Shown here: piece after piece, positions 6,754 through 20,560 of the stretch | Layout: each line of letters opens with the position of its first letter | Numbering within the stretch: position 1 is the stretch's first letter | NCBI GenBank assembly: GCA_947174495.1 | Contig: CAMWJC010000026.1 | Location: 1 to 38,116 of the forward strand | Direction: 5' to 3' | DNA length: 38,116 nt | DNA from: an uncultured Lachnospiraceae bacterium | Lineage (GTDB): Bacteria > Bacillota > Clostridia > Lachnospirales > Lachnospiraceae | Made by a program: the position numbers and the translations under genes | Notes under the pieces: model-generated | Seen by the model: the letters and a program-made list of their open reading frames with translations, nothing else | Told to the model about the DNA's origin: nothing | Databases searched by the model: none

Positions 6754-8994
6754 ATGAGTATTTATGACACTTTAAACGAGCAGCAAAAAAAGGGTGTGCT
6801 TACTACAGAAGGCCCGGTTCTTTTGCTGGCAGGGGCCGGTTCCGGAAAGACCCGTGTGCTTACTCACCGCATTGCGTATTTAATTGAAGAAAAGGGAGTA
6901 AATCCTTGGAATATCATGGCCATTACCTTTACCAATAAGGCAGCGGGGGAAATGAAAGAACGTGTGGAGAAGCTGGTGGGAATGGGATCGGACAGTGTCT
7001 GGGTGACTACCTTTCATTCCACCTGTCTGAGAATTTTGAAGCGCTATGCGGACAGGATTGGATTTGATACAAGCTTTACCATTTATGATTCGGATGATCA
7101 GAAGTCCATTATGAAAGAGGTATGTAAAAGATTACAGATCGACACCAAGATGTTGAAGGAAAGAGCTATTCTCTCTGCCATTTCTTCTGCAAAGGATGAA
7201 CTGATCTCTCCGGAAGAGTATGCTCTCAATATTATGGGAGATTACCGGAAAGAGAAGATAGGAGCAGTTTATCGGGAATATCAGGCGGTTCTGCGCAGGA
7301 ATAATGCCATGGATTTTGACGATCTGATCATGAAGGCGGTGGAGCTTTTTAAGACGGACGGAGAAGTACTTGCCTCCTATCAGCGGCGCTTTCAGTATAT
7401 TATGGTAGATGAATATCAGGATACCAATACCGCGCAGTTTGAATTTGTCAGGCTTCTTGCCGGAGCGCATCGCAACTTGTGCGTGGTGGGAGATGATGAT
7501 CAGTCTATTTATAAGTTCCGGGGAGCCAATATTCGGAATATACTGGATTTTGAGAAGGTATACCCGGAGGCGGAGGTGATCCGTCTGGAACAGAACTATC
7601 GTTCCACGCAGAATGTACTAGATGCGGCCAATGCGGTTATCCTTAACAATAAGGGCAGGAAGAGTAAGACTCTCTGGACAGATAAGGGCAGTGGAAGCAG
7701 CATTCATTTCCGGCAATTTGATACCGCCTATGAGGAGGCGGAGTTCATTGCAGATGATGTGGCAGGCAAAAAGAGAAACGGTGTGGCAGATTACGGAGAT
7801 TGTGCGGTTTTATACCGGACGAACGCTCAGGCCCGGCTTCTGGAAGAACGTTTTGTGATAGAAGGGATTCCTTACAATGTTGTGGGCGGAGTGAACTTTT
7901 ATGCCAGACGGGAAATCAAGGATCTGCTTGCCTATTTAAAAACCATTGACAATGGAAAAGATGATCTTGCAGTAAAGAGGATTATCAATGTGCCCAAGCG
8001 GGGCATTGGAACGACCACCATTGTGAAGGTGCAGGATTACGCAGATATGCGGGAGATCAGCTTTTACGATGCTCTGCGGGAAGCGGATGAAATCATGGAC
8101 ATCAGCAGGGCTACTGCGGCCAAGCTGAAGCCTTTTGTAAATATGATACAGGCATTTCGAAGTAAGCTGGAGTTTTACAGTTTAAAAGATTTGATTGAAG
8201 ATGTGATTGAAACCACCGGATATGTGAAAGAGTTGGAGACCTCCAATGAGGAAGACGCAGAGGGACGGATTGAGAATATCGACGAATTGATCAGCAAGAT
8301 TGTTGCATTTGAGGAAATGCGTGATCGCCCTACGTTAGGGGAGCTTTTGGATGAAATAGCGCTTGTGGCGGATATTGATAATCTGGATGGGGAAGGCAGC
8401 AAGGTACTTCTTATGACTCTGCATAGCGCGAAAGGATTGGAATTTCCTCATGTATACATGGCGGGGATGGAGGACGGGATTTTTCCCAGTTATATGACCA
8501 TCATTTCCGATGATCCGGATGAGATCGAAGAGGAGAGAAGACTTGCTTATGTGGGCATCACCCGTGCCAAAGATGACCTGACTCTGTGCTATGCAAAGAT
8601 GCGTACCGTGCGTGGTGAAACTCAAATGAATGCGGTAAGCAGGTTTGTAAGAGAGATCCCCCAGGAATTGATGGATAACCGGCCCCCAAGCCCGAGAGTC
8701 CGGCCGGTAGCTATTCCTACACCGGTAAGGACAGCCGTGGAAAATAAACCTTATATTGCCGGAGGCGGTATCGGATCACTGCGGGCAGCGGGAATCACTA
8801 AGGGCGTAGGTGCAGTGACCGGCGGAAAACCGGATTATGATATTGGAGACAGGGTAAAACACGTGAAATACGGAGAAGGTACGGTTCTTGATTTAGAGCC
8901 GGGACCGCGGGATTATAAAGTTACGGTGGACTTTGACGAGGCGGGTCAGAAAATCATGTATGCTGCTTTCGCCAAATTGATGAAAATTTCATAA
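6754..8994 (+). CDS. pcrA: ATP-dependent DNA helicase PcrA/UvrD
   Basis: This full-length 746-residue superfamily 1A helicase unwinds DNA 3'-5' in repair and in replication-fork rescue. All motifs are visible: Walker A AGAGSGKTRVL (about 27-37), Ia TFTNKAAGEMKERV, II DEYQDTN, III VGDDDQSIYKFRGA, IV LEQNYRS, V TLHSAKGLEF and VI RRLAYVGITRAKDDL. The C-terminal tail ends in a YDIGDRVKHVKYGEGTV Tudor-like segment typical of Firmicute PcrA, which contacts RNA polymerase. The start is two bases after the preceding stop, with GAGGA upstream, so it is in the same transcription unit as the zinc-ribbon genes. An A/T-rich hairpin follows the stop. Confidence 0.97.
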   Translation: MSIYDTLNEQQKKGVLTTEGPVLLLAGAGSGKTRVLTHRIAYLIEEKGVNPWNIMAITFTNKAAGEMKERVEKLVGMGSDSVWVTTFHSTCLRILKRYADRIGFDTSFTIYDSDDQKSIMKEVCKRLQIDTKMLKERAILSAISSAKDELISPEEYALNIMGDYRKEKIGAVYREYQAVLRRNNAMDFDDLIMKAVELFKTDGEVLASYQRRFQYIMVDEYQDTNTAQFEFVRLLAGAHRNLCVVGDDDQSIYKFRGANIRNILDFEKVYPEAEVIRLEQNYRSTQNVLDAANAVILNNKGRKSKTLWTDKGSGSSIHFRQFDTAYEEAEFIADDVAGKKRNGVADYGDCAVLYRTNAQARLLEERFVIEGIPYNVVGGVNFYARREIKDLLAYLKTIDNGKDDLAVKRIINVPKRGIGTTTIVKVQDYADMREISFYDALREADEIMDISRATAAKLKPFVNMIQAFRSKLEFYSLKDLIEDVIETTGYVKELETSNEEDAEGRIENIDELISKIVAFEEMRDRPTLGELLDEIALVADIDNLDGEGSKVLLMTLHSAKGLEFPHVYMAGMEDGIFPSYMTIISDDPDEIEEERRLAYVGITRAKDDLTLCYAKMRTVRGETQMNAVSRFVREIPQELMDNRPPSPRVRPVAIPTPVRTAVENKPYIAGGGIGSLRAAGITKGVGAVTGGKPDYDIGDRVKHVKYGEGTVLDLEPGPRDYKVTVDFDEAGQKIMYAAFAKLMKIS

Positions 8995-14252: not shown

Positions 14253-15047
14253 TTAAATAGTAATGCTCTCCCCGCAGGATAAATAGGAGATAGTCTTTTG
14301 CCTGGCAGATAAGTAATTATACGCCTCTTTTCCAGTACAGTGACAGGTATAAAACCGGGTTTCCTGATAGGCTTGTAATTCCTGTAGAATTTCGTCAAGT
14401 AATGACGTGGGAGCAGATTCCTTGCTGGTGGGATTAAACAGATGGAAACCGCCTATGCATACTTCGGGCTGAAAGGATTTGGCTTTGTCCAGAATATTGA
14501 TGATGCCGCAGTGACCGCATCCCATGACCAAAGCAGTAGTGTTTTCGGTAATGAGCAGATTCTGCTCATGAGAAAAATTGTCTCTGCCAGAGGGACCATA
14601 GAGGACGTCATTTGCGGGGGAATGGCATTTGTCGGTTTGGGTTACGGTAAACAGAGATAATTCTTCATCAATTTTATAATCACCGTCAATTAAAATGATT
14701 TGGGGATCATCTATAAGACTTTGATCCAGACCGATAAATTTATCTCTGCCAAAGGTTTTGTTTAAATGGGGCTCAAAGGCCCTTTTTTGTATGTAAATAT
14801 TTGCAGTGGGGTTGACGGTCATAAATTCGAACAAGGCTCCGCCATGGTCTGCATGTCCATGGGATATGATAACCGTATCTATTTCCGAGAGATCAATGCC
14901 TCGTTTGGCAGCGTTGGCAAACAGGGTATGATCGGGACCAAGATCAAATAATATATGATGATTCTTTGTCTGAATATACAGGGACAGTCCGTGGGCTGTT
15001 TTCAGTTCACAGTTTGATGTATTTTCTACTAATGCAGTGATAATCAT
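14253..15047 (-). CDS. Metallo-beta-lactamase-fold hydrolase
   Basis: This 264-residue protein has the metal motif HGHADHGG at residues 63-70 and the late His motifs GCGHCGIINIL and FHLFNPTS. The type, beginning MIITALVENTS and continuing LSLYIQTKNHHILFDLGPD, is close to proteins annotated as 7,8-dihydropterin-6-methyl-4-(beta-D-ribofuranosyl)aminobenzene-5'-phosphate synthase-like. These are generic hydrolases without a demonstrated substrate. It is not a beta-lactamase. The ATG is preceded by GGAGGG on the minus strand and by a good promoter. Confidence 0.88.
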   Translation of the reverse strand: MIITALVENTSNCELKTAHGLSLYIQTKNHHILFDLGPDHTLFANAAKRGIDLSEIDTVIISHGHADHGGALFEFMTVNPTANIYIQKRAFEPHLNKTFGRDKFIGLDQSLIDDPQIILIDGDYKIDEELSLFTVTQTDKCHSPANDVLYGPSGRDNFSHEQNLLITENTTALVMGCGHCGIINILDKAKSFQPEVCIGGFHLFNPTSKESAPTSLLDEILQELQAYQETRFYTCHCTGKEAYNYLSARQKTISYLSCGESITI

Positions 15048-15164: not shown

Positions 15165-15216
15165 GGAGTTAGTCAATTTACGTAGTGTTGACAGAAAAAC
15201 GGCAATTGTATATAAT
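15165..15216 (+). promoter_or_regulatory. Promoter and putative BlaI operator of the blaI-blaR1-like pair
   Basis: TTGACA (15188-15193) and TATAAT (15211-15216) with a 17-base spacer make a near-perfect sigma-A promoter. Just upstream and across the -35 lies GTCAATTTACGTAGTGTTGAC, here split as GTCAATTTACGTAG and TGTTGAC. It has GTCAA/TTGAC outer arms and an ACGTAGT core that resembles the GACTACA/TGTAGTC half-sites of the two downstream promoters. A further GTAGTC lies between the -10 and the gene. Autoregulation by the BlaI-like repressor is inferred. Confidence 0.6.
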
Positions 15217-15269
15217 AGTGAAGACAATAAGTAGTCAGAAAATGCAGTAATCACGAAAGGAGGAAAGCG

Positions 15270-15641
15270 ATGAAAAGTGAATATCAAATATCCGATTCTG
15301 AATTGGAAGTAATGAAAATGCTTTGGCAGCAGAAAGAAAGTATAAAGCAGTCCCAACTGTTTCAATTGTTTGAAAATGAGGGGAAGGAATGGAAAAGGCA
15401 AACATTAAATACATTCCTTTCCAGACTGGAGGGAAAGGGACTGATCAAAAGGGAAAAAGGGATGGTTTCCGTAGTGTGTGACGAAGAGGAATACAATTTT
15501 GCGCAGGTAAAAAGTGCTATTGATAATCTGTATGGAGGAAAACTTAGTAGTTTTATAGCAGCATTTATCAAGAAGGAGGCCGTAAGCAAAGAGGATGCCG
15601 AAGAATTAAATCAATATTTAAAGACACTGAAAAAGAAGTAG
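15270..15641 (+). CDS. BlaI/MecI-family transcriptional repressor
   Basis: A 123-residue winged-helix repressor. The N-terminal ISDSELEVMKMLWQQKESIK and the recognition region WKRQTLNTFLSRLEGKGLIK match the BlaI/MecI/CopY family. The C-terminal helices (FIAAFIKKEAVSKEDAEELN) are the dimerisation part that partner proteases cleave or destabilise. AAAGGAGG precedes the ATG. The M56-protease gene follows 31 bases downstream, giving the classical repressor-sensor pair. No beta-lactamase or PBP2a gene is in the window, so the regulated function differs. Its likely targets are the promoters at about 15188, 17064 and 19062. Confidence 0.93.
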   Translation: MKSEYQISDSELEVMKMLWQQKESIKQSQLFQLFENEGKEWKRQTLNTFLSRLEGKGLIKREKGMVSVVCDEEEYNFAQVKSAIDNLYGGKLSSFIAAFIKKEAVSKEDAEELNQYLKTLKKK

Positions 15642-15672
15642 AAATAAAGCTTATGACAGATGGAGAAAATGA

Positions 15673-17031
15673 ATGAATTATATTTTGACATTATGCTTGT
15701 CCGGTAGTGTGATGGGGCTTATGTATTTTGCTATAAAGCATATGGCTAGCAGCCGTTTGTCCGCAGAGTGGCAGTATCGAATGATCAAGGGAGTCATTAT
15801 TTTTTATTTACTGCCGTTGCCATTCTTAAAGAAGTTTTATGTGGCTGCTCTTAATAGGATTATGAGAAAAGAGCAGCCGGTGCAGGGGATTTTGCAGATT
15901 TATCAGGATAAGAGTCTGATTGTTTTTCAAGAGGGAAAGCTTATCTTCAATGAGAGCTTTAAAATACAATTTCACGCGTTATTGATTTGGGCGGTTATAA
16001 CAACGTGCGTTATATTATGGCAAAGCGTTCGGTACCTGATAAACCGGCAAAGATTGAGTCAGTACAGACAAGGAATAAAAGTGGCTGCTGATGTGAAACA
16101 GATTGAACAGTTTAGGGAGCAATATGCGATACAACGCAAGATTGAATATATAGGTAGCAGCAACAAGAATTCCCAAAACAATGCTGTTTTTACCACTGGA
16201 TTCTTCAGACCGACTATTTTTTGCTTTACGGAAGCAGGGAGCTGGGAAAAGGAGATGATTTTAAGGCATGAGATCATACATATCAAGCGGTGGGATGTTT
16301 TGTGGAGAGTGCTGATGTTTGGCGTACAGATCGCCCATTGGTATAATCCGCTAGTCTGGCTGTTATCCCGTGAATTTGACAAGGTTTGTGAAATGTCATG
16401 TGATGAGCGGGTGCTGCAGGGAGAAAGTAACGAGTTAAAAGGAAGATATGGAAAACTACTGATCGCCATGGCGATGGGAGAAGAGAAGAGGAAACCATAT
16501 ATTTTGGGGTTGAGTAAAAGCGGAGAACAATTAAAGGAAAGGATTGATAATGTGATGAGAGACGGAAAAAGGTGTTTTGGAAAATTGGTTTCTGCGTGTA
16601 TTGTAGGGGCGATGGTACTTTTGAATTCGCTGACGGTATTCGCGTATGAGGATGTGCAATTTGCAAATGCTGAAAAGGATAATGAAAGGTATTTGGAAAG
16701 TGTGCTTAAGAATGATGTTGAATTTATACCGGGCGGAGAAGAGGAAGTTCAAAAATATTCTAAATTAGTTGATTTTATAAAAGATGAAATTATTTATGAA
16801 TCACAATTTACAGATGTAGAGGGAAACATTTATCCGGTATATGAAAATGAAGCAGAAAGTTATGCGGTGTGTGAACACAATTTTGTCGCGGGGACGTATA
16901 AGGAACATGAAAAGCATTCAGACGGAAGCTGTGTGCTGATTTTATATTATGCGGAAAGATGTGCAAAGTGTGGTATAGTGCAGATTGGTAAGGAACAAAG
17001 CAGGATAAATTTTCAACCATGTCCGCATTAA
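15673..17031 (+). CDS. BlaR1-like M56 membrane protease with a Cys/His-rich ectodomain
   Basis: This 452-residue protein has four predicted membrane helices (about residues 5-25, 38-55, 96-115 and 303-322). Between the last two lies an M56 metalloprotease domain with HEIIH at 199-203 and a third ligand Glu in CEMSCDE near 240. In BlaR1 this domain inactivates BlaI on signal. The C-terminal part after the fourth helix is only about 130 residues. It lacks the SxxK/SxN penicillin-binding sensor and instead ends in a cluster C400-x-H402, H412, H415, C420, C430-x2-C433 and C450-P-H452, which suggests a metal- or redox-sensing ectodomain. It is the second gene of the blaI-like operon. Confidence 0.88.
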   Translation: MNYILTLCLSGSVMGLMYFAIKHMASSRLSAEWQYRMIKGVIIFYLLPLPFLKKFYVAALNRIMRKEQPVQGILQIYQDKSLIVFQEGKLIFNESFKIQFHALLIWAVITTCVILWQSVRYLINRQRLSQYRQGIKVAADVKQIEQFREQYAIQRKIEYIGSSNKNSQNNAVFTTGFFRPTIFCFTEAGSWEKEMILRHEIIHIKRWDVLWRVLMFGVQIAHWYNPLVWLLSREFDKVCEMSCDERVLQGESNELKGRYGKLLIAMAMGEEKRKPYILGLSKSGEQLKERIDNVMRDGKRCFGKLVSACIVGAMVLLNSLTVFAYEDVQFANAEKDNERYLESVLKNDVEFIPGGEEEVQKYSKLVDFIKDEIIYESQFTDVEGNIYPVYENEAESYAVCEHNFVAGTYKEHEKHSDGSCVLILYYAERCAKCGIVQIGKEQSRINFQPCPH

Positions 17032-17063
17032 AAATCTAATTCATGGATTTCCCTTTTATAACA

Positions 17064-17115
17064 TTGACTACACTGCGTCTTCATGATAAGATAGAAATGA
17101 TTACAAAATGTAGTC
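17064..17115 (+). promoter_or_regulatory. Promoter with BlaI-type dyad upstream of the secreted PPC-like protein
   Basis: TTGACT (17064-17069) and TAAGAT (17087-17092) have a 17-base spacer. The -35 runs into GACTACA, and the inverted half-site TGTAGTC lies downstream within GATTACAAAATGTAGTC (17099-17115), whose TACA-AAA-TGTA core is a dyad like BlaI/MecI operators. Blocks of this region recur at 19062, including ATGTTTACA and GAAAGGAG before the gene. Control by the adjacent BlaI-like repressor is inferred. Confidence 0.6.
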
Positions 17116-17146
17116 TAAAAACATGTTTACATGAAAGGAGAAAACT

Positions 17147-18184
17147 ATGAAAATGAAGAAACTGTTGTGTATGGTATTAGCAGGCGGAATGCTCTTTTCT
17201 ATGACAGCATTCGCGGCACCGGAGGAAACCTCTGATTATAGTGGAAGTGAAGATGAAGCTATTGAGTATTTGGAATCCTTCAAATTGGATAAAATCGATC
17301 CGATATATATGGATGAGGACGAGGTTGCAGCTTTATTTTCAGGAGATGGAGGTATACAACCTTATGTAACAGAACCGGATGACTGTGAGCCAAACGATAC
17401 GTTCGATACGGCATATCCCTATGATCAGATGCCTATAATGACACCGCAGCTAACGAGTAGATATGATTTATTTACTTTAGGCATGCGGTATGCAGGTCTT
17501 CATTCTGAAGAAGATGAGGATTGGTATTCAGTTAGTCTGACAGCTGGGAAGAATTATTTTGTTGATATAAGAAATCTTGCCAGAAATAATTGGTTTATTC
17601 AGCTATACTTTTTAAGATCAGACGGTACTGGGTATTTCTATTCTACTGATTCAGAGAATATGCCGGTTTTTACAAATAAATCGGAGAAATACTTCTATTT
17701 TACAGCCGAGGATACGGGAACATATTATATAAGGGTTGCTAATGGTGGAGATTGGTCAGACGAAATGTATTATTACTTTTATGTAGGTCCTTCTATTCAA
17801 AGTTTTGATATAGTGGGTATGCCTACTTATGGCGGAGTGAATCTTTTGGGGGATGATTATAGGACGTATACTTGTGATTTGAGCGGTTTGGCAGTACCTG
17901 CGCATACTGCAATTATAAATTTATCTATGAGTGATAATTTTGGTGAGGGAACCGTATGTCCCGAAGTTGATAAGTATATGAGAGCTGACGGAAAGACATA
18001 TTATAGTACTATTGGAAGTAAATCAAATGTTATTAATAACATTACTGATGTATCATTGGGGCAAGTATGGACTATAGGTGGAAAGTGTTCAAAAGGAACA
18101 CACTATACCTATTGGAGTGGAAATCTAAATGGAAGATTCGCCTGTATTATGGCACCATATCCGGGAAACGAAGTATCTTTTTAA
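17147..18184 (+). CDS. Secreted protein with a PPC-like beta-sandwich domain
   Basis: A 345-residue protein with a clear signal peptide (MKMKKLLCMVLAGGMLFSMT, cleavage near AFA-AP at about residue 23). An acidic stretch follows, then a domain (about residues 75-215) with the bacterial pre-peptidase C-terminal pattern: CEPNDTFDTAYPYD, EDEDWYSVSLTAGKNYFVDI and AEDTGTYYIRVANGG. The last 130 residues are strand-rich and unrecognised. No catalytic motif, LPXTG or lipobox is seen, so it should be released or loosely bound outside the cell. GAAAGGAG precedes the ATG. The promoter suggests control by the BlaI-like repressor. The next gene starts 20 bases after the stop, so the two are co-transcribed. 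Confidence 0.72.
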   Translation: MKMKKLLCMVLAGGMLFSMTAFAAPEETSDYSGSEDEAIEYLESFKLDKIDPIYMDEDEVAALFSGDGGIQPYVTEPDDCEPNDTFDTAYPYDQMPIMTPQLTSRYDLFTLGMRYAGLHSEEDEDWYSVSLTAGKNYFVDIRNLARNNWFIQLYFLRSDGTGYFYSTDSENMPVFTNKSEKYFYFTAEDTGTYYIRVANGGDWSDEMYYYFYVGPSIQSFDIVGMPTYGGVNLLGDDYRTYTCDLSGLAVPAHTAIINLSMSDNFGEGTVCPEVDKYMRADGKTYYSTIGSKSNVINNITDVSLGQVWTIGGKCSKGTHYTYWSGNLNGRFACIMAPYPGNEVSF

Positions 18185-18203
18185 ATGGGGAGGCTAAGAA
18201 AGC

Positions 18204-19034
18204 ATGAGTATCAGCGGAGTAGGGAGCACTTACACATATGTTTACAATTCTACAACAGGAAAACTATCAACAAAAGACGGTTCTGCCGATGAATTCGTGG
18301 ATTTTTTTAATGGAGATTTACAGGGGGAATCGTCCAATTCTCTGAATGGCTTTGATGTAAAGGAAAAGCATAATATTGAGGACATGATCAGATGTTTTTC
18401 ATCAGGGATGGGAAAAGATATTTTTCATGGCGCTGATGGAGATAATTATGAGATTACCGGTGAGATTGTTGATGCGGCGACTTCCAACTATTCCGTAAAT
18501 GGAGAAAAGGTTTTAACGGCTTACAGTGCAGTGTACTACACTTATGATGAGATCATGCAATTTGGATCGTTTTTCCAGCCCTACAAAACACGGCAGTCCA
18601 AAGGTTACGATCCGGAAATCAACAGCATTAATATTGCAGTTGGAGATGTGATTAATTTAGGTAATGGGTGCAAATTGACGGTAAAAGAAGATCATATTTA
18701 TGGAGAGGGCTACGGGAAAAGTGATGAAAACGACAGAAAATTAAATCAGTTAGTATGGGCTTTAAGTGCGCTGATTCATTTTGCAGATCAACAGTCGTTT
18801 GCCGACATAATCGATAAAGAAAGCACACCGATGCTTCTGGAGCTTTTAAAACAGATGGGAGTGGATACCGGCAGAGAGTTTACGATCAATGAGACGAAAT
18901 GTGAGGTCGTGAACGGAAGAATAAGAGAAGTGGGCAACACTCATGTAGTGCCAAGCTCCATTTACAATAATGCCTTGAAGCGGTATGAGGAAATGCTGTA
19001 TATTCCTCTGTCACAACGGAAAGAAGCAGAATAA
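18204..19034 (+). CDS. Leaderless protein of unknown function, co-transcribed with the secreted protein
   Basis: A 276-residue protein that starts MSISGVGSTYTYVYNSTTGK, with no signal peptide or membrane helix. A GNGCKLTVKEDHIYGEGYGK segment lies near residues 153-172, and helices follow. I do not recognise the family. Short Lachnospiraceae proteins with Ser/Gly/Tyr-rich N-termini of this kind occur near similar regulators, but I know of no function. GGGAGG precedes the ATG. Its last ten codons (IPLSQRKEAE) recur as a loose fragment after the gene ending at 20498, which shows that a related gene once stood there. Confidence 0.65.
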   Translation: MSISGVGSTYTYVYNSTTGKLSTKDGSADEFVDFFNGDLQGESSNSLNGFDVKEKHNIEDMIRCFSSGMGKDIFHGADGDNYEITGEIVDAATSNYSVNGEKVLTAYSAVYYTYDEIMQFGSFFQPYKTRQSKGYDPEINSINIAVGDVINLGNGCKLTVKEDHIYGEGYGKSDENDRKLNQLVWALSALIHFADQQSFADIIDKESTPMLLELLKQMGVDTGREFTINETKCEVVNGRIREVGNTHVVPSSIYNNALKRYEEMLYIPLSQRKEAE

Positions 19035-19061
19035 ATTTTGCAGTGTATTCCTTTTGTGAAG

Positions 19062-19089
19062 TTGACTACATAATGTGACATGCTAAGCT
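19062..19089 (+). promoter_or_regulatory. Second BlaI-type promoter
   Basis: TTGACT (19062-19067) and TAAGCT (19084-19089) are 16 bases apart. GACTACA-TAA-TGTGAC (19064-19079) overlaps the -35 and resembles the dyad at 17064. The bases around it (CCTTTT before, CATG-TAAG near the -10, ATGTTTACAC-GAAAGGAG after) align with the 17064 promoter, so it is a duplicated control region. Confidence 0.6.
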
Positions 19090-19148
19090 ATACATGGATA
19101 CATAGTATGGTCAACAAGAGAAATGTTTACACGAAAGGAGTAAGAAAA

Positions 19149-19190
19149 ATGAAAAATCTATTTTGTATAATTTTAAAGTGGAATGTTTAA
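19149..19190 (+). pseudogene. Orphan start of a signal peptide (13 codons)
   Basis: After a GAAAGGAG site equivalent to that of the secreted PPC-like gene, an ATG opens MKNLFCIILKWNV and stops. The first ten codons parallel MKMKKLLCMVLAGG of the gene at 17147. It appears to be the remnant of a replaced paralogue, now only a leader in front of the gene at 19203. Confidence 0.5.
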
Positions 19191-19202
19191 GGAGGATAAC
19201 AA

Positions 19203-19778
19203 ATGAAATGTAAGAGTAAAGCAGCAATATTGCAGAAAGTAAAAAAGATGATTAATGCGACTCTTTTATTAGTATTTATGATGGGTTTGTTTGGTTTATT
19301 TTCAATTGATGTTCAGGCAAAAGAGATTGTAGATGACTACTTGCCTGAGGGCTGGACGAGAATTGAAACAAATATATTGACAGGCGAGGAAATATCTGCA
19401 ATTAGTGCAGCTATATATGGTGTAGATGAAACCATACAACCTAAAGCACCAGCCCCTCCACTGACTTCGTTGGAAATTATTGATCTTGCAGTAGATGAGA
19501 ATAATGAAATCCATGTGGTTACAAGAGAAATCGGAACAAGCAAAGAGAAAATGCGTTTTGTGTATTGGAATAATTCCCTTTGTCCTGAGAATATTTATGA
19601 AGTACAGCATTTAGTGGGTGCAGATCATATTATATATGGTTCTATTCATTACTTTCACACAGGGGTATATTATTCCGAATCGGTAAGTGGAATGGTAGTA
19701 AGGGTAACTGCTAAATCAACAAATGCATCAAATCCATGGAATATATTGAATGCATCTAGAACTTTTGAGTTGCCTTAA
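19203..19778 (+). CDS. Small secreted protein of unknown function
   Basis: A 191-residue protein with a long N-region and a hydrophobic core (MINATLLLVFMMGLFGLFSI, about residues 17-36), with likely cleavage after VQA near 38. The mature part is about 150 residues, without Cys-rich or catalytic motifs. It includes EGWTRIETNILTGEEISAIS and GADHIIYGSIHYFHTGVYYS, and reads as a beta-rich exported protein. GGAGG lies 7 bases before the ATG. It is the first intact gene after the BlaI-type promoter at 19062, from which it is separated by the broken signal-peptide start. A hairpin follows. Confidence 0.65.
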   Translation: MKCKSKAAILQKVKKMINATLLLVFMMGLFGLFSIDVQAKEIVDDYLPEGWTRIETNILTGEEISAISAAIYGVDETIQPKAPAPPLTSLEIIDLAVDENNEIHVVTREIGTSKEKMRFVYWNNSLCPENIYEVQHLVGADHIIYGSIHYFHTGVYYSESVSGMVVRVTAKSTNASNPWNILNASRTFELP

Positions 19779-19913: not shown

Positions 19914-20498
19914 ATGGAAATTGTGAATAATGCGGTTTCTGGTGTTTGTTCAAACGAGTATAAAAGTAAAAATGTGACGAAGCAGACAAATGAATATTCG
20001 ATGAAAACGGATACGCCAGAAACAAATGACAGGATTTTAGGAATTGGATTTTTACATGAAAAAAATAGCAATATATCTTACGGGATGCGGGCTGAGTATG
20101 CAGATAATTATTCAGAGGCTACTCCCGTTATTAAGGTGGTAGTACGAAGGTCAAACGGAAAAGAAGAATATAATATAAATATTAATGATATTGATCCGAG
20201 GAATGCAACAGAAATAGAAATGTTTGCACTGTGCAACTATGCTGATGCAAAAGGGATAGGAACGGGAGGCACGTTTGGAAGTTGGCAGACATTAAATTAC
20301 TATCGTGATAATGCTGCGCATAATGGATATTTCAAACAGACAAATGGAACGGATTCATTTGATAGCGTGAGACAGGACTGGATGGCAATGGTTCAAACAA
20401 TGATCAAGGATTATATAGAGGCAGGATTATATAAACAATCCTTAGATGGCAAAGGATTGCTAGGAATATTTTCAAAGTTTGCGAAAACTTCCGCATAA
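19914..20498 (+). CDS. Leaderless protein of unknown function
   Basis: A 194-residue protein beginning MEIVNNAVSGVCSNEYKSKN, with no signal peptide, membrane helix or known motif. The first third is polar and low in complexity. The middle (YSEATPVIKVVVRRSNGKEE, about residues 67-86) looks like beta strands, and the end is helical (WMAMVQTMIKDYIEAGLYKQ). It may be analogous to the leaderless protein at 18204, since each follows a secreted-protein gene in this cluster. A copy of the last codons of the 18204 gene lies directly after its stop. GAAGGGG is a modest ribosome site. Confidence 0.6.
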   Translation: MEIVNNAVSGVCSNEYKSKNVTKQTNEYSMKTDTPETNDRILGIGFLHEKNSNISYGMRAEYADNYSEATPVIKVVVRRSNGKEEYNININDIDPRNATEIEMFALCNYADAKGIGTGGTFGSWQTLNYYRDNAAHNGYFKQTNGTDSFDSVRQDWMAMVQTMIKDYIEAGLYKQSLDGKGLLGIFSKFAKTSA

Positions 20499-20560
20499 TT
20501 CCTCTGCCACAACGGAAAGAAGCAGAATGAATTCTGCAGAATAAATTTTTAGCAGTGTAT
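20498..20560 (+). pseudogene. Duplicated 3' end of the leaderless gene (remnant)
   Basis: Codons reading IPLPQRKEAE and a stop (20498-20530) are nearly identical to the end of the gene at 18204-19034 (IPLSQRKEAE, 19002-19034). The similarity continues into the untranslated bases (AATTTT..GCAGTGTAT). This is the tail of a lost paralogue, now fused by position to an unrelated reading frame. Confidence 0.7.

Follow-up and report, generated by a model that had tools for sequence, protein, structure and literature searches.

The staphylococcal systems BlaI/BlaR1/blaZ and MecI/MecR1/mecA combine a repressor of the winged-helix family with an M56 membrane protease, and their operators lie in the promoters of both regulators and targets (PMC7593790, PMC5341023). 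Repression by BlaI and its cleavage are described for the BlaI/BlaR1 family (PMC7593790), and the mechanism proposed below builds on that precedent. The copper repressor CopY has the same BlaI/MecI-type DNA-binding domain and TACA/TGTA-type palindromes (PMC5772342). In Clostridium thermocellum, BlaI and BlaR1 genes stand together in autoregulated, very small regulons that include hypothetical proteins; for one repressor, BlaI_0696, the published motif is a 6-N5-6 inverted repeat, doubled upstream of each target, with modest gel-shift support, and the authors read the regulons as a beta-lactam response (PMC8457756). But does every such pair answer to beta-lactams? Here we analyse a BlaI/M56 pair on contig CAMWJC010000026.1 of an uncultured Lachnospiraceae bacterium (assembly GCA_947174495.1, 2.9 Mb, 78% complete); the window is this entire contig of 38,116 nucleotides (C26 in our numbering). 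A preliminary description had proposed that the pair controls exported proteins, not a beta-lactamase. The reading we favour, with a probability of about 0.74, is of a local autoregulated BlaI/M56 switch without a beta-lactam sensor that would control exchangeable cassettes, each made of an exported and a leaderless protein.

The gene order from position 15270 is blaI (123 amino acids), the M56 gene (452), a PPC-domain gene (345), p276, p191, p194 and a carbonic anhydrase gene; all features lie on the forward strand unless stated otherwise. The identification of the two regulators as BlaI-like and BlaR1-like was borne out by the family models. BlaI (15270..15641) belongs to Penicillinase_R (Pfam PF03965, 2.3e-22, 80 bits for a cut-off of 22.6, model positions 1-114 of 115) and matches MecI structures by phmmer (7e-12). 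Unlike CopY, it has no cysteine and is accompanied by a membrane M56 partner, and it reaches 54.8 bits with the CopY/TcrY equivalog model, whose cut-off is 121.95. The partner (15673..17031) has the HExxH signature of an M56 metalloprotease, visible as HEIIH in the translation, and matches Peptidase_M56 (5.8e-34) over residues 5-293 only. The BlaR1 model aligns with it over positions 8-341 of 585, at 80.6 bits against a cut-off of 400, and Pfam and NCBIfam models found no penicillin-binding sensor domain in its 452 residues. By its sequence, then, this is a member of the M56 family and not a BlaR1 beta-lactam sensor. Is there a hidden beta-lactamase among the targets? None of the bla/mec type (beta-lactamase or penicillin-binding protein gene) was found among them, as had been claimed; in contrast to the staphylococcal systems, with their penicillin-binding sensor and beta-lactamase or PBP2a target, the targets here are the PPC protein and others that fit no known family. 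An MBL-fold hydrolase gene does lie divergent from blaI (14253-15047, reverse strand; Pfam Lactamase_B 2.8e-12), and one could imagine it as the main target of a disguised beta-lactam response. This is hardly credible: the protein stays far under every beta-lactamase cut-off shown and its best NCBIfam matches, likewise below cut-off, are flavorubredoxins; its predicted promoter (15106-15078) lies clear of the candidate operator of blaI; and the M56 protein is without the domain that would bind the antibiotic.

Where would BlaI bind? The blaI promoter, P1, was placed at 15188 by the preliminary description and is indeed a perfect TTGACA-17-TATAAT (15188..15216, 12 of 12 consensus matches). Directly after its -10 element lies the candidate operator O1, GAAGACAATAAGTAGTC (15220..15236), which gives blaI the inverted-repeat operator in its own promoter that is characteristic of the BlaI/MecI family, as judged by comparison. 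The PPC operon promoter, P2 (TTGACT-17-TAAGAT, 17064..17092), came from a promoter scan and has two candidates: O2a, GACTACACTGCGTCTTC (17066..17082), overlaps the -35 element and O2b, GATTACAAAATGTAGTC (17099..17115), directly follows the -10 element, the two being 33 bp, or about three helical turns, apart. The exact word GAYTACANNNTGTAGTC occurs in the assembly at O2b only. Read in this way, the operator is a 17-bp dyad, GACTAC-N5-GTAGTC, at 15220, 17066 and 17099. An inverted GACTACA/TGTAGTC pair had been claimed for each of the promoters at 17064 and 19062; the words are real, but those of P2 (17066 and 17109) are the outer halves of O2a and O2b, and the wide pair as a single operator was ruled out in favour of two dyads. 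The proposed TACA-n-TGTA dyads of BlaI/MecI type likewise hold up by comparison, with the qualification that the best site has the spacing TACA-N3-TGTA and not the N2 of the staphylococcal operators, whose consensus RNATTACAWNTGTARKNT (PMC5341023) has at least four mismatches in each of P1, P2 and P3. Closer is the C. thermocellum BlaI_0696 arrangement, with which this locus shares the 6-N5-6 inverted repeat and the two dyads per target promoter (here in P2), although the half-site is GACTAC here and GTCTAT or GACTAT there (PMC8457756).

The evidence that carries this operator comes from orthologous promoters. The closest relatives of the window BlaI are found in other genera of the family (loci L173, L174, L159, L169 and L168, 45.9-58.1% identity), the best in 37 genomes of its own genus being 40% identical. 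All five blaI promoters have GACTAC-N5-GTAGTC-like dyads beginning 30-46 bases before the start codon. A matrix built from these five sites, with the window excluded, puts 17066 at the top of the 38 kb, followed by 15220 and then 17099, and ranks 19096, in a third promoter-like region discussed below, tenth. The training sites came from a scan of the orthologue promoters, that of L173 being picked by eye, and L173 and L174 represent one genus. When a script chose the sites (one of them wrongly), 15220, 17066 and 17099 led again, with a summed score reached by none of 1000 control matrices made from other promoters of the five loci; on a weaker statistic, with four of the top ten sites falling in P1-P3, 32 of the 1000 equalled the result.

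How far does this pattern extend? We compared 35 other loci, leaving out L175 and L180 (no BlaI open reading frame (ORF) recognised) and L048 (a near copy of L047). For the family-wide site count 24 of the 35 were kept, a complete ORF for the tail of the M56 protein (described below) not being recognised in the other 11. With at most one mismatch in ten positions, the best operon-promoter site was found in 9 of 24 pairs, compared with 4 of 200 promoters of other genes and, for the motif in reverse, none of 25, the test regions being up to 230 bp long and the controls 130 bp; this is the outcome of the search near homologous pairs that the preliminary description had suggested. Sites at this stringency also occur in the 400 bp downstream of the pair (4 of 24, reversed motif 0 of 25), and at two mismatches the figures are 9 of 24 and 5 of 25. 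By eye, the first promoter downstream of the pair has a site behind its -10 element in L169 and L178 and, less clearly, in L168; one in L162 precedes the gene of an exported-looking protein; and L173 has a second site about 3.5 kb downstream (at 8306). The repressors themselves point in the same direction. All 7 repressors with WKR ahead of QT, the window's included, go with an outer operator G (in L178 at one end only), and 16 of the 17 with other residues at this position go with a different base. Only L163 departs from this; its blaI lies behind the M56 gene, so that the region upstream of blaI is coding. This count covers the 24 of 36 loci, window included, that have a site with no more than two mismatches, and the window BlaI falls within a six-member clade with support 100/99.

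Inside the assembly, the pattern GANTACN5GTAGTC with up to one mismatch occurs at 19 distinct places. P1 and P2 account for three of them. Another 14 fall within ORFs called mechanically, which leaves two intergenic sites outside the window: the promoter of a paralogous blaI, and a place 5 bp from a start codon where no promoter is recognisable by eye. At this stringency, and in an assembly that is 78% complete, a genome-wide regulon was thus set aside. The assembly has nine BlaI-like matches, the window's included, and the paralogous promoter concerned, on contig C10, carries GACCACTCATTGTAGTC, one mismatch from the pattern. Could a paralogue, most likely that of C10, be the protein that reads the dyads? 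This is improbable, as the operator matches the blaI promoters of the window BlaI's own orthologues, and five of the eight paralogous blaI promoters of this genome (those of L120-L124) each show by eye a palindrome of their own, some with ACTAC/GTAGT pieces in common. One of these palindromes, GTCTATTAGATATAGAC, fits the published BlaI_0696 motif of C. thermocellum (PMC8457756). These five paralogues may be separate BlaI switches within a single cell, insulated from one another.

Several observations weigh against a BlaI-operated switch of this kind, or against parts of the case for it. Taken alone, none of P1, P2 and P3 has a palindrome that stands out: 136, 156 and 155 of 200 shuffles, respectively, give one as good as the best, and under this scoring the best palindromes differ from the operator dyads. 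The operator is the top palindrome in L159, L173 and L174, where 24, 24 and 15 of 200 shuffles equal it, and a different palindrome ranks first in L168 and L169. Single-promoter symmetry was therefore ruled out as proof, shuffles scoring equally well, and it is the orthologue comparison that decides the operator. The assembly contains fewer matches to the pattern (22) than to its reversed control (83), so match numbers alone show nothing and it is position that does. At two mismatches the family-wide count becomes less clean (16 of 24 pairs, 15 of 200 controls, 6 of 25 for the reversed motif). The change between G and non-G needs just three or four events on the tree, giving few independent cases, and the residue-base match is for this reason supportive and not an independent proof. 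The dyads of the third promoter-like region are weak and degenerate, and that region falls below the promoter-scan threshold. The five closest orthologous pairs have other neighbours and none of the PPC, p276, p191 or p194 cargo; a PPC-like gene at L047 has only a shortened dyad in its promoter; and 2 of 72 places of the p194 family are near a tail-bearing pair, which rules out p194 as a marker of the switch. Could the promoters then resemble each other with no repressor at work, simply because they descend from one duplicated segment and carry ordinary sigma-70 elements? Homology over some 160 bp (below) and the ordinary symmetry of the single promoters would fit, but common descent leaves unexplained why P1 and the blaI promoters of other genera contain the same dyad, and it does not account for the residue-base association; we regard it as very improbable. 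The control link that had been proposed for the repressor thus appears well supported for blaI (P1) and the PPC operon (P2) by the orthologue matrix, the sites in related pairs and the residue-base match, and more weakly for the third region.

Instead of a penicillin-binding sensor, the M56 protein ends in a Cys/His tail (codons 16843..17028) with the layout CxH..H..C..CxxC..CPH. In an alignment of ten sequences, ten columns (CxH, H, C, A, CxxC and CPH) are invariant in all, and family-wide matches place the tail in 27 genomes out of the 397 sampled for the family and in 9 out of 37 for the genus; both counts include the genome of the window. No description of a BlaI/M56 pair with such a tail was found among titles and opening parts of abstracts in the open-licence PMC literature; the comparison with the C. 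thermocellum systems (PMC8457756) covered their operators and regulons. Against solved structures the tail has a single match, a weak one of its CxxC part to TnpB-type proteins (E about 0.01), and metal or thiol sensing is for that reason a hint only. A single-sequence AlphaFold model of the region was useless (mean predicted local distance difference test (pLDDT) 42). The tail varies in its genetic setting. At L165 (2909-4610) a copy forms a separate 88-residue ORF behind an M56 gene that has its own variant ending, and at L111 (4373-7218) two tail-bearing M56 genes stand in tandem behind a single blaI.

What does the switch control? The PPC-domain protein (17147..18184; Pfam PPC 1.8e-7), which had been named as a PPC-like first target, has a signal-peptide-like N-terminus, as does p191 (19203..19778); these N-termini were judged by eye and export is predicted. 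Each is followed by a leaderless partner, p276 (18204..19034) and p194 (19914..20498) respectively. Neither p276, p191 and p194 nor their relatives have a Pfam match above cut-off, p191 having only a sub-threshold match to DUF4479, and a single-sequence AlphaFold model of p276 was useless (mean pLDDT 38). Ahead of p191 lies P3, a promoter-like copy of P2 (TTGACT-16-TAAGCT, 19062..19089), with the degenerate operators O3a, GACTACATAATGTGACA (19064..19080), which ranks 158 with the close matrix and 7 and 6 with the other two, and O3b, GGATACATAGTATGGTC (19096..19112), which stays in the top ten with machine-picked sites. As the preliminary description had noted, the promoters at 17064 and 19062 have in common TTGACTACA and CATG-TAAG near the -10, as well as ATGTTTACA(T/C)GAAAGGAG, said to precede the gene. 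In P3 the conserved ribosome site leads into a 13-residue ORF (19149..19190), a remnant of a duplicated PPC-gene start, and the gene of the second predicted exported protein begins at 19203. The regions align over about 160 bp, reaching into the beginning of the PPC coding sequence, with a score of 99; the highest among 500 shuffles of P2 was 44. The sharing is real, but P3 is a diverged duplicate of P2 and so no independent evidence. The repeated segment is found as boundary copy A (17032..17191: the stretch before P2, P2 and the PPC gene start, with weak similarity back to 16992), copy B (19002..19191: the end of p276, P3 and the remnant start) and the 42-bp copy C (20498..20539), which shares 93% identity with the p276 end at 19002-19043. 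The two exported and leaderless gene pairs lie between these copies, and the simplest reading of the repeats is a tandem duplication of promoter, PPC gene and p276, after which the second interior would have been replaced by p191-p194. Segment A was also considered as a wider repeat in the genus and set aside, with short weak matches only.

Is the second pair still under the switch? It may be that BlaI controls only itself and the PPC operon, with P3 a decayed duplicate and p191-p194 expressed independently. We consider this possible, though somewhat doubtful. The P3 dyads are decayed and the promoter, under the scan threshold, leads into the remnant; on the other hand, O3b is still in the top ten of the window, and at L115 (G150:C39), where relatives of both p191 (39% identical) and p194 (30%) lie beside another tail-bearing BlaI/M56 pair, the promoters of blaI and the p191 relative share a word, AATACnGTAAACnTTTA (1 of 1000 shuffles). 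That pair is outside the GACTAC code, and the core of its word occurs in only those two places of the 12.5-kb locus on both strands. The wider reading, of a switch with exchangeable cargo, also draws on the recurrence of PPC-like, p191-like and p194-like proteins beside other tail-bearing pairs. In genome G111, L047 has a PPC-like protein (BLAST E 1e-8, no PPC match by Pfam) and a leaderless protein with a 38% identical relative at the L117 pair, and a p194-domain protein lies beside the broken pair of L164 (E about 2e-5). Upstream of p276 and p194 relatives in genomes without a tail match the motif was not seen, in 323 bp in G160, 54 bp in G171 and 34 plus about 150 bp in G424, which is weak evidence because the stretches are short except in G160, a genome with no BlaI match at all. 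There, at L039 (348-12420), a 50% identical relative of p276 adjoins what appears by eye to be an NHLP-type peptide-export cluster. At L188 in G424, p194-like and p276-like genes are adjacent, with no BlaI/M56 pair within the 2.1 kb examined, so the leaderless families pair up elsewhere too.

How might the switch work? A BlaI dimer would bind the 17-bp sites O1, O2a and O2b and block polymerase: O1 would cover the start region of blaI-M56 at P1, O2a and O2b would clamp the -35 element and the start region of the PPC-p276 operon at P2, and the diverged copies in P3 would probably give p191-p194 weaker control. The Cys/His tail would sense a change on the outer side of the membrane and switch on the M56 protease, which would cleave BlaI and release the blaI-M56 and cargo genes. 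Comparing sequences gives the operator, its occurrence at blaI as well as at the PPC gene, the absence of a sensor domain and the conservation of the tail. That BlaI binds, represses and is cleaved, that the tail faces outwards and that signalling runs in this direction is carried over from the BlaI/BlaR1 family. As to the signal, metal, thiol/redox state or envelope stress would be a guess. A fuller version, in which this branch of switches, with its small extracytoplasmic and possibly metal- or thiol-binding tail, runs cassettes that are swapped between boundary repeats as under diversifying selection, like competition/immunity pairs, seems to us unlikely.

The kind of system is already known, since in C. 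thermocellum BlaI runs small regulons that include its own gene and hypothetical proteins, with two dyads per target (PMC8457756); what is new, as far as the literature search reached, is the tail, together with the operator/residue code and the cassette cargo. M56 proteins, of which the 37 searched genomes of the genus have up to 14 matches each, are easily labelled regulators of beta-lactam resistance, and this locus warns against calling such pairs resistance genes. It offers a testable operator code for one branch of the family, a conserved tail in which metal or thiol binding could be tested, and an initial inventory of the cargo that such switches may control.

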